Part shown: one piece after another, positions 44,897 through 57,992 of the stretch
Layout: each line of letters opens with the position of its first letter
Position numbering within the stretch: position 1 is the first letter of the stretch
Assembly: GCA_030694365.1 (NCBI GenBank)
Contig: JAUXYM010000004.1
Span: 1 to 64,000 of the forward strand
DNA from: Nevskia sp.
GTDB taxonomy: Bacteria; Pseudomonadota; Gammaproteobacteria; Nevskiales; Nevskiaceae
Length of the DNA: 64,000 nucleotides
Reading direction: 5' to 3'
Translations under genes and position numbers: made by a program
The notes under the pieces: model-generated
Databases searched by the model: none
The model's input: the letters and a program-made list of their open reading frames with translations, nothing else
Told to the model about the DNA's origin: nothing

Positions 44897-45018
44897 ACAG
44901 CACTCCGGCAGACCGCGCTTCGCGGGGCGGCGAATGATAAACCGCTGGCTCCCGGCAGGCCGGCGCAGCAACATCCCGGCGGCCAGATCGTGGGTCTTGA
45001 TATCATTTCTCCGTTCGC

Positions 45019-45228
45019 AGGTGCCCGCATCCCCGCTCGACAGGGGATCCGGGTTAAACGGGAAGCTGGTGCGCGTTCGCTGTCATCGAACGCTATTCCG
45101 GCGCTGCCCCCGCAACGGTAGATGGGAGTACTTCGGCCCAACGCCACTGGATCGTGTCTCGATCCGGGAAGGCGTCGAAGGAAGCGGCCGCACGCCGTTT
45201 CACCCATGAGCCCGGAGACCGGCCTGGA
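45019..45228 (+). promoter_or_regulatory. Cobalamin (adenosylcobalamin) riboswitch
   Basis: aggtgcccg...ggGTTAAACGGGAAgctggtg...GCTGCCCCCGCAACGGTA...GGGAAGGcg...gaGCCCGGAGACCGGCCtg immediately upstream of btuB. Confidence 0.97.
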
Positions 45229-45302
45229 ACGGGTCCGTGCGCATCCTGCGCGCGGCGAGTCCGGCTGGTGACCTGCGGGGACGCGGGTCGCAGGAGAAAT
45301 CG

Positions 45303-54447: not shown

Positions 54448-55083
54448 TCATTGGCGGGCTCGCACTCGGCCAATCACCTTACTGATCGCATGGTCCTGCC
54501 AGCGGGCGAGCAGCAGCATCGCCAGGGTGGCGCCGATCAGCGCCATCAGCATGTCCGACTGGGTATCCCACTGGTCGCCCTGGGTGCCGAGAAAATCGTC
54601 GGCGTTCTGGCCCAGCGCGACTGCCGCCGCCCATTCGATCAGCTCGTAGACCGCGCTGATCGCCATCGCCACGCAGACCGACAGCAAGCCGGCGATGAAG
54701 GCATGGCCAGCGACGATGCGATGGCGGATCAGCAGCTCGCGCGTCGCCAAGGCCGGCACCAGACCCTGCAGCAGATGGCCGAGCTTGTCGTAGGGATTGC
54801 GGGACAGCGCGAACACCTCCTGCACCCAGTTGCCGATCGGCACACGGGCATAGGTCCAGGTACCGCCGCCGATCAGCACCAGCGCGTGCACGGCGATCAG
54901 CACGTACAGCAAGGTGGTCAGCGGAAAACGCCGGCGGCTGAACCACAGCAACGGGGCGACCAGCACCACCGGCAGCACTTCCATGACCCAGGTGAGGCGA
55001 TCAAACGGCGCGATCGCCGACAGGATCAGCGCCACGGCGACCAGCAGGACCAGCGCCGTGTGCAGGCGGGAGTTGGCGTTCAT
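54448..55083 (-). CDS. DUF2238 membrane protein (YjdF-like), possible independent gene from ATG 55083
   Basis: [39 protein letters not shown]...[23 protein letters not shown]...[35 protein letters not shown]. Confidence 0.85.
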
Positions 55084-56934
<1,851 letters not shown>

Positions 56935-56965: not shown

Positions 56966-57194
56966 TATTGATTCGGTCACGAAATAGTGGAATAAAGTGA
57001 TACGTCTGAATTTGACGTCCGATCTTCCCAGCGAGACCGACACGTGGCGGAATCAATAATAAAATCAATGTGTTTTTTGTTATTGAGGCGGCCGGCGCGG
57101 TCTAAAACCCTGAGTCACTTCCTGCCACCGTCGGCCTGCTTGTTCAACATTTTGAGGGCCGCCTCAATATTGATTCGGTCACGAAATAGTGGAA
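56966..57194. repeat. Pair of 27-bp direct repeats flanking an AT-rich spacer
   Basis: TATTGATTCGGTCACGAAATAGTGGAA at 56966-56992 and 57168-57194; inverted TATTGAGGCGGCC (57081-57093)/GGCCGCCTCAATA (57157-57169) inside. Confidence 0.8.
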
Positions 57195-57838
57195 CGAGGT
57201 GCTGCGCCGAAATTTGAGACTGAAGTTCTTCCAAGAGGGCAGACGCATCGTCAACAAGCCAGCCACGTCAAGAAGACATCAAACGCTTTCCAATCAATGG
57301 CCTGAGAACCTGTTCGCACCACCTTGGCGGCACACTCGGCCACTGGCACGCTCGATACAGTCACCTAGTCATAACGTCAGGCCAAGACCTGATCATCGGC
57401 ACCGCTGAAAGCGGGCTGTCGCGAAACTGGAGAGAAAGATGACCGTCGTTTCCCCTTTGCCGAGCAGCCCGCCGAGCCCACAGATGCTAGGTGTTTGCCC
57501 CTGCCAACTGATACCGCGTGGGTATCGCAAGAGACGGCGGCGTAACGAACGAGATAGCAATGAGGCGTCGCCTCGGCCTCAGCGCGGATCGGAAGCACGC
57601 CTGGATCGGCAAACGCAGGGCAGCCCGGGAAAAACACGAACCACGGCATTCGGGGGCAGATCGACGGTTCAGGCCAGGCCAAAGCCTTGATTTCAAAAGG
57701 CTCAGGGCCTTGCAGCCCTCGGCCTGTCGCCGGTCGAAGCTCGACTGCGGCGATCAATTATTTTGACGGTTCCGTCAAATATTTTGTGCGTCTGCGACAA
57801 GCGGCTGATTTTCAACGATAAATGGTCGGCCACATTTC

Positions 57839-57867
57839 TTGACCTCGACATCGACCGTGTTTATACT
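57839..57867 (+). promoter_or_regulatory. Sigma70-type promoter for candidate sRNA
   Basis: TTGACC (57839-57844) - 17 nt - TATACT (57862-57867). Confidence 0.7.
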
Positions 57868-57873
57868 GCACCG

Positions 57874-57992
57874 CAACAACAGTCATTCACCGCAGTGCAA
57901 AAGTAGAAAAACTCGATTGCACTGCGGATGTCTCCTCCAGAAAGGCTTCGGCCTTTCTCGCACCTTGCCCCCTGATTCAGGGGGTTTTTTTT
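57874..57992 (+). ncRNA. Candidate small RNA (~119 nt), no coding potential
   Basis: Promoter followed by hairpin CCGCAGTGCAA/TTGCACTGCGG (57890-57900/57917-57927), hairpin AGAAAGGC-TTCG-GCCTTTCT (57939-57958), terminator hairpin and T8. Confidence 0.7.
57968..57992 (+). terminator. Rho-independent terminator
   Basis: CCCCCT-GATTC-AGGGGG followed by TTTTTTTT. Confidence 0.9.

Follow-up and report, generated by a model that had tools for sequence, protein, structure and literature searches.

The window, i.e., the whole stretch of 64,000 nt analysed from a Nevskia sp. contig (JAUXYM010000004.1), carries on its plus strand a predicted sRNA of about 119 nt (57874-57992, with a predicted 5' end) that belongs to a conserved family. 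Its sigma-70-type promoter, TTGACC-N17-TATACT (57839-57867, +), is composed of TTGACC at 57839-57844, a 17-nt spacer and TATACT at 57862-57867, and the form TTGAC-N16..18-TATAcT is kept in most members. A PhaR-type operator, ATAC-TGCACCGCA-ACAA (57863-57879), overlaps the -10 box and the start site. The predicted transcript then contains a 5' hairpin (57890-57927, +), which has a perfect 11-bp stem (57890-57900 with 57917-57927) and a 16-nt loop; the exposed segment UCUCCUCC (57931-57938, +), which is complementary to the Shine-Dalgarno (SD) sequence and near-invariant across the order; a second hairpin with an 8-bp stem and a UUCG cap, AGAAAGGC-UUCG-GCCUUUCU (57939-57958, +); the inter-hairpin segment CUCGCACCUU (57957-57966, +), which is also near-invariant, in part owing to the pattern used for extraction; and an intrinsic terminator, CCCCCTgattcAGGGGG, followed by a T run that ends at 57992 (57967-57992, +). 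The original prediction had claimed this promoter, both hairpins, the terminator and an unpaired anti-SD segment, GGATGTCTCCTCC, and all of them were found as described. It had also held that no gene lies here, which agrees with the overlaps being limited to a mechanically called 101-aa TTG ORF and short ORFs, none of them convincing. Upstream of the promoter there is a dyad with perfect 6-bp arms, TTGACG-N4-CGTCAA (57763-57778), which recurs at a fixed distance, 165-174 nt before the core, in 11 Nevskia members of both the window type and the phaR-linked type. It may be the site of a second regulator, which suggests another input, or an old phaR terminator. Farther upstream, the gene-free stretch contains a 50-nt direct repeat (56966-57015 and 57168-57217) whose units share 84% identity at a distance of 202 nt and overlap with inverted repeats, perhaps the remnant of a mobile element.

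The minimum free energy of 57874-57992 was -48 kcal/mol compared with -26.9 +/- 3.4 kcal/mol in shuffled sequences (z = -6.2), and none of the 200 shuffles folded as well. The predicted ensemble leaves UCUCCUCC largely free of pairing, although the unpaired probability falls to about 0.3 at two of its bases, and CUCGCACCUU is mostly unpaired beyond the stem; a second pairing site or an Hfq site is a possible role for the latter. A scan of 1.6 kb gave three promoters (0.8 expected), of which this one is the best; the terminator is one of five (1.8 expected). A promoter or a terminator alone would be weak evidence, and chance is excluded here because they are conserved across the order. No Rfam family reached its gathering threshold at the position of the sRNA, and the matches obtained at low thresholds (RF02348, RF02278, anti-hemB and others) were all far below theirs; the tracrRNA family RF02348 scored 23.0 bits against a gathering threshold of 70 (E 0.19).

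The sRNA represents a real, conserved and previously uncatalogued family. The 119-nt segment was found by BLASTN in 58 of 61 genomes ranging from the genus to the order, and a covariance model that was built from the relatives (R1) matched 80 of the 85 genomes of the order, among them Nevskia, Solimonas and Salinisphaera. When named genomes were scanned with an exact pattern, matches came from Nevskia, Solimonas, Hydrocarboniphaga, Polycyclovorans, Sinimarinibacterium and Salinisphaera. These names point to a Nevskia-like gammaproteobacterium as the source of the window, and a betaproteobacterial origin, to which the weak RF02278 match had pointed, was rejected on their account. Outside the order, R1 found three loci in a sample of 229 genomes of the class. 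The order-wide part is a 3' module that consists of UCUCCUCC, a hairpin, CUCGCACCUU and the terminator and is present in one to five copies per genome; the window-type copy with the 5' hairpin is restricted to part of the genus. For the alignment (A1), 56 distinct members were extracted using a pattern that demanded CTCCTC and CGCACC, so the invariance of both in A1 is partly built in; among the members that were found without this pattern, UCUCCUCC was retained in 12 of 13. Compensatory changes occur in all three stems across the relatives. Overall, 94.1% of the cells in A1 are paired (91.2% in shuffles), and six pairs have changed on both sides compared with a shuffled mean of 1.8. The window-type 5' hairpin was compared in seven distinct sequences, which are few and related; four of its pairs differ on both sides, and 93% of the cells are paired, with slid controls reaching no more than 46%. 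An independently transcribed anti-SD sRNA, as originally predicted, is therefore well supported at the level of sequence by the order-wide conservation, the covariation of the stems, the kept promoter and terminator and the fact that UCUCCUCC is the most conserved segment.

The family is linked to phaR. Of the 61 genomes of the order set, 59 encode PhaR (PF07879), and 50 of the 56 genomes that have both carry a copy of the sRNA directly downstream of phaR, on the same strand and 421-720 nt beyond the DNA-binding domain of PhaR; at the loci examined, pnp usually comes next and is convergent. In at least one genome without a scored sRNA copy (G010), the absence goes back to a contig edge. In the Nevskia genome itself, the phaR-linked copy lies at C26:16340-16409, and the PhaR encoded on this contig scored above the cut-off for PF07879 and TIGR01848 (147 bits, cut-off 109; equivalog). 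Two of the three loci found by R1 outside the order (L265 and L266) are also just downstream of a phaR-like gene, which was recognised by sequence. Around the window copy, conservation spans only about 400 nt and the flanking genes vary between species. The window copy is an additional paralogue, most likely a duplicate that arose later and has a separate 5' hairpin, with the copy that adjoins phaR as the ancestral one. A third copy in the same genome (C67:2055-2123) has no operator-type promoter and forms the 3' end of a small gene that belongs to no known family, in whose promoter region there is a PhaR-type site, TTGTTGCAATGCAGCA; it is possibly a 3'UTR-derived sRNA. The C67 locus (L080, 1412-2127) lies beside ptsI/ptsH/rapZ-like genes. 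In another genome (G030; L042, 2441-3700), a transposase-like gene, IS256-type by inspection, is placed between tandem copies of the sRNA.

Beyond what had been noted earlier at this locus, the new elements are the PhaR-type operator over -10/+1, the paralogue behind phaR and the kinship with RF02278. The PhaR palindrome of R. eutropha is YTKNTGCRNYGCANMAR (PMC12849132), and the palindrome bound by PhaR in S. meliloti contains YGCRNYGCR (PMC12542648). The operator in the window has two mismatches to the R. eutropha sequence and an exact core at 57867-57878. Nearly all of the member promoters read TTGAC-N17-TAtAcTGCAYYGCAACA. When up to three mismatches were allowed within 140 nt upstream, the operator (TGCAYYGCAACA) was found in 49 of the 56 members, with 0.4 expected from mononucleotide shuffles, which served as the control, and 8% in flank windows. 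Its phase is nearly fixed as well: of the 44 promoters that could be scored for it, 43 have the operator starting on the final base of the -10 hexamer. The operator was absent at the phaR-linked sRNA of three Salinisphaera genomes that bear PhaR. It was also absent in the two genomes without a PhaR match, in one of which (G044) the contig edge is just upstream. In the Nevskia genome, two tandem PhaR-type sites cover the promoter of a gene on C99 that encodes a phasin-like protein of 158 aa (L237, G000:C99, 1897-2373, -); its resemblance to phasins is one of composition, and it matched none of the Pfam or NCBIfam phasin models. Among the PF09361 phasins of the order, essentially no PhaR operators were found.

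Two described systems offer precedents for such an arrangement. In R. eutropha, PhaR represses phaP1 by way of sites that cover the phaP1 promoter, and PHA granules titrate this repressor (PMC12849132, PMC12542648). PhaR can also activate, as in the case of phaP3 (PMC12849132). The PhaR palindromes of phaP1 lie over a sigma-70 promoter and start site (PMC12849132) just as in the window; the difference is that the phaP1 promoter drives a protein gene while the window promoter drives a predicted sRNA. In S. meliloti, PhaR (AniA) binds the promoter of the mmgR sRNA and represses it (PMC12542648), and MmgR (alpha-r8) lowers phasin synthesis post-transcriptionally and tunes PHB storage (PMC12542648, PMC8401924). 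The shared feature is an sRNA promoter with a PhaR site, which here is a sequence match in those 49 of 56 members. MmgR differs in being alphaproteobacterial and 77 nt long, with its PhaR site placed otherwise relative to the promoter, and membership in RF00519 (suhB; MmgR) was rejected (13.1 bits against a gathering threshold of 41, E 5).

The nearest Rfam relative is RF02278, the Betaproteobacteria toxic small RNA of Burkholderiales, which comprises the double-hairpin RNAs ncS03, ncS05, ncS27 and ncS62 of Burkholderia cenocepacia. Membership in it was rejected as well, with 20.4 bits against a gathering threshold of 50 (E 0.09 in a 451-base search), and a search of the Nevskia genome for RF02278 gave no match. 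Both RNAs run from a UGUCUCC(UCC) seed through a hairpin to a terminator hairpin with a U run, and both families have several copies per genome and an upstream PhaR-type operator. RF02278 differs in the sequence of its first hairpin, lacks CUCGCACCUU and mostly lacks the longer 5' hairpin; furthermore, its loci did not adjoin phaR in the genomes that were checked. In a sample of one betaproteobacterial family with one genome per genus, PhaR is encoded in all 26 genomes and RF02278 exceeds its threshold in 20 of them. The operator lies upstream of 20 of the 27 oriented RF02278 loci compared with 0.3 in shuffles and 2.4% in flank windows, and one further threshold-level locus (L167) also carries it. 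Among sub-threshold double-hairpin RNAs from other lineages of the class, it was found in only 4 of 26. The distribution of the site marks the PhaR operator as a feature of particular lineages of double-hairpin sRNAs. Sub-threshold RF02278-like double-hairpin sRNAs from other families of the class (L087, L089, L094, L096, L097, L102, L103, L106 and L109), which mostly lack a PhaR site, have a different promoter motif in common, approximately ATATTAGAAAATnCTTACATACTGATT. They may be sRNAs of this kind that have come under a different regulator. In B. cenocepacia, an unidentified motif lies upstream of three of the four RF02278 genes, and three of these genes are induced 4- to 8-fold in glucose medium (PMC5688073). 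PhaR control would fit both the motif and the induction. A literature search, whose coverage lay outside the primary NcS27 (2019), MmgR and toxic-RNA papers, found no link between PhaR and RF02278 or ncS27. Taken together, the window sRNA most likely works like MmgR and the RF02278 RNAs, although it is a sequence-level member of neither.

The sequences themselves show the family and its fold, the operator-like element with its phase and the phaR linkage. From these we infer an order-wide sRNA family in the PhaR regulon that is repressed by PhaR and released when PHA granules form, with the window copy as a duplicate, and give this reading a probability of roughly 0.7. Free PhaR bound to TGCACCGCAACA over -10/+1 would block transcription of the sRNA; when PHA granules form, they would titrate PhaR and the sRNA would be made; the exposed UCUCCUCC would then pair with the SD sequences of its targets and block their translation. 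The repression, its release by granules and the occlusion of the SD are drawn from the analogy with PhaR-repressed phaP1 and MmgR. The sRNA would thus add a post-transcriptional arm to the carbon-storage (PHB) response and would probably turn selected genes off during storage. The predicted duplex between the UCUCCUCC segment and the SD of the phasin-like mRNA has an energy of -12 kcal/mol, which as a target pairing is suggestive only. Perfect GGAGGAGA-N-ATG sites number 13 in the Nevskia genome, and the candidates with GGAGGAGA at their start include a catalase-like protein, a 3-hydroxybutyrate-dehydrogenase-like SDR, a PQQ alcohol dehydrogenase, a response regulator and others, some of these names having been assigned by inspection.

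This reading is weakest with regard to the PHA signal, since the N-domain of PhaC (PF07167) was undetected in 27 of the 61 genomes, the Nevskia genome included, despite the presence of PhaR and mostly of the sRNA. The PF09361 phasins that lack the operator, the three Salinisphaera genomes without it at their phaR-linked sRNA and the ability of PhaR to activate also count against the reading. The Nevskia assembly is 89% complete and the search covered PF07167, with class III synthases lying outside it; no PhaC was seen beside the PF09361 phasin. PhaR that is kept without a detectable PhaC N-domain may reflect either the use of a class III synthase or another role of PhaR. The genomes that have PhaR and the sRNA without PF07167 also favour a different explanation, in which the RNA is an anti-SD sRNA of carbon metabolism like ncS27 that answers to a signal other than PHA; TGCAYYGCAACA would then serve a different regulator or act as a promoter element, and the position of the sRNA next to phaR would reflect no more than old synteny. 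Some phaR-adjacent sRNAs without the TGCAYYGCAACA element, and the dyad upstream of the promoter with its hint of a further regulator, point in the same direction. We nevertheless consider it rather unlikely, as the element fits the experimentally defined PhaR sites of both alpha- and betaproteobacteria and recurs at the phasin-like gene of the same genome and at the RF02278 promoters.

A general brake on translation, in which an abundant CU-rich RNA titrates SD sites broadly and slows growth, would be in line with a seed that is nearly a generic anti-SD and with the growth inhibition caused by overexpressed relatives from RF02278 (PMC4603805, PMC5688073). It is improbable in view of a seed that exceeds the anti-SD core of the 16S rRNA and is conserved over 8 nt, the equal conservation of CUCGCACCUU, the ncS27 effects, which were described as carbon-source specific, and the small number of perfect GGAGGAGA-N-ATG sites given above. 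That the family is merely a spreading terminator or 3'UTR module with no activity in trans, as C67:2055-2123 and a few other copies without their own operator promoter might suggest, is hardly credible given the phased promoter at most copies, conservation that peaks in the unpaired segments and the low copy number.

Under the PhaR-regulon reading, an uncatalogued order-wide sRNA family gains a specific candidate regulator and a signal, and a testable reason is offered for the behaviour of the 'toxic' sRNAs of RF02278. We see about an even chance that PhaR together with an anti-SD sRNA forms a general proteobacterial carbon-storage circuit of at least three very diverged sRNA families (MmgR of alphaproteobacteria, RF02278 of Burkholderiales and that of Nevskiales), which would explain the so far unexplained regulation of the toxic sRNAs. 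If so, translation would be under the control of PHA granules via sRNAs in several branches of Proteobacteria, with a bearing on carbon-storage physiology and bioplastic production.

Elsewhere in the window, a single ORF on the minus strand (54448-56934) joins an XylR_N-V4R-sigma54-HTH_8 activator to a DUF2238 membrane domain, which is either an unusual fusion or the product of a frameshift or assembly artefact, and a cobalamin riboswitch (RF00174) is located at 45002-45240 (+) with a score of 103 bits.
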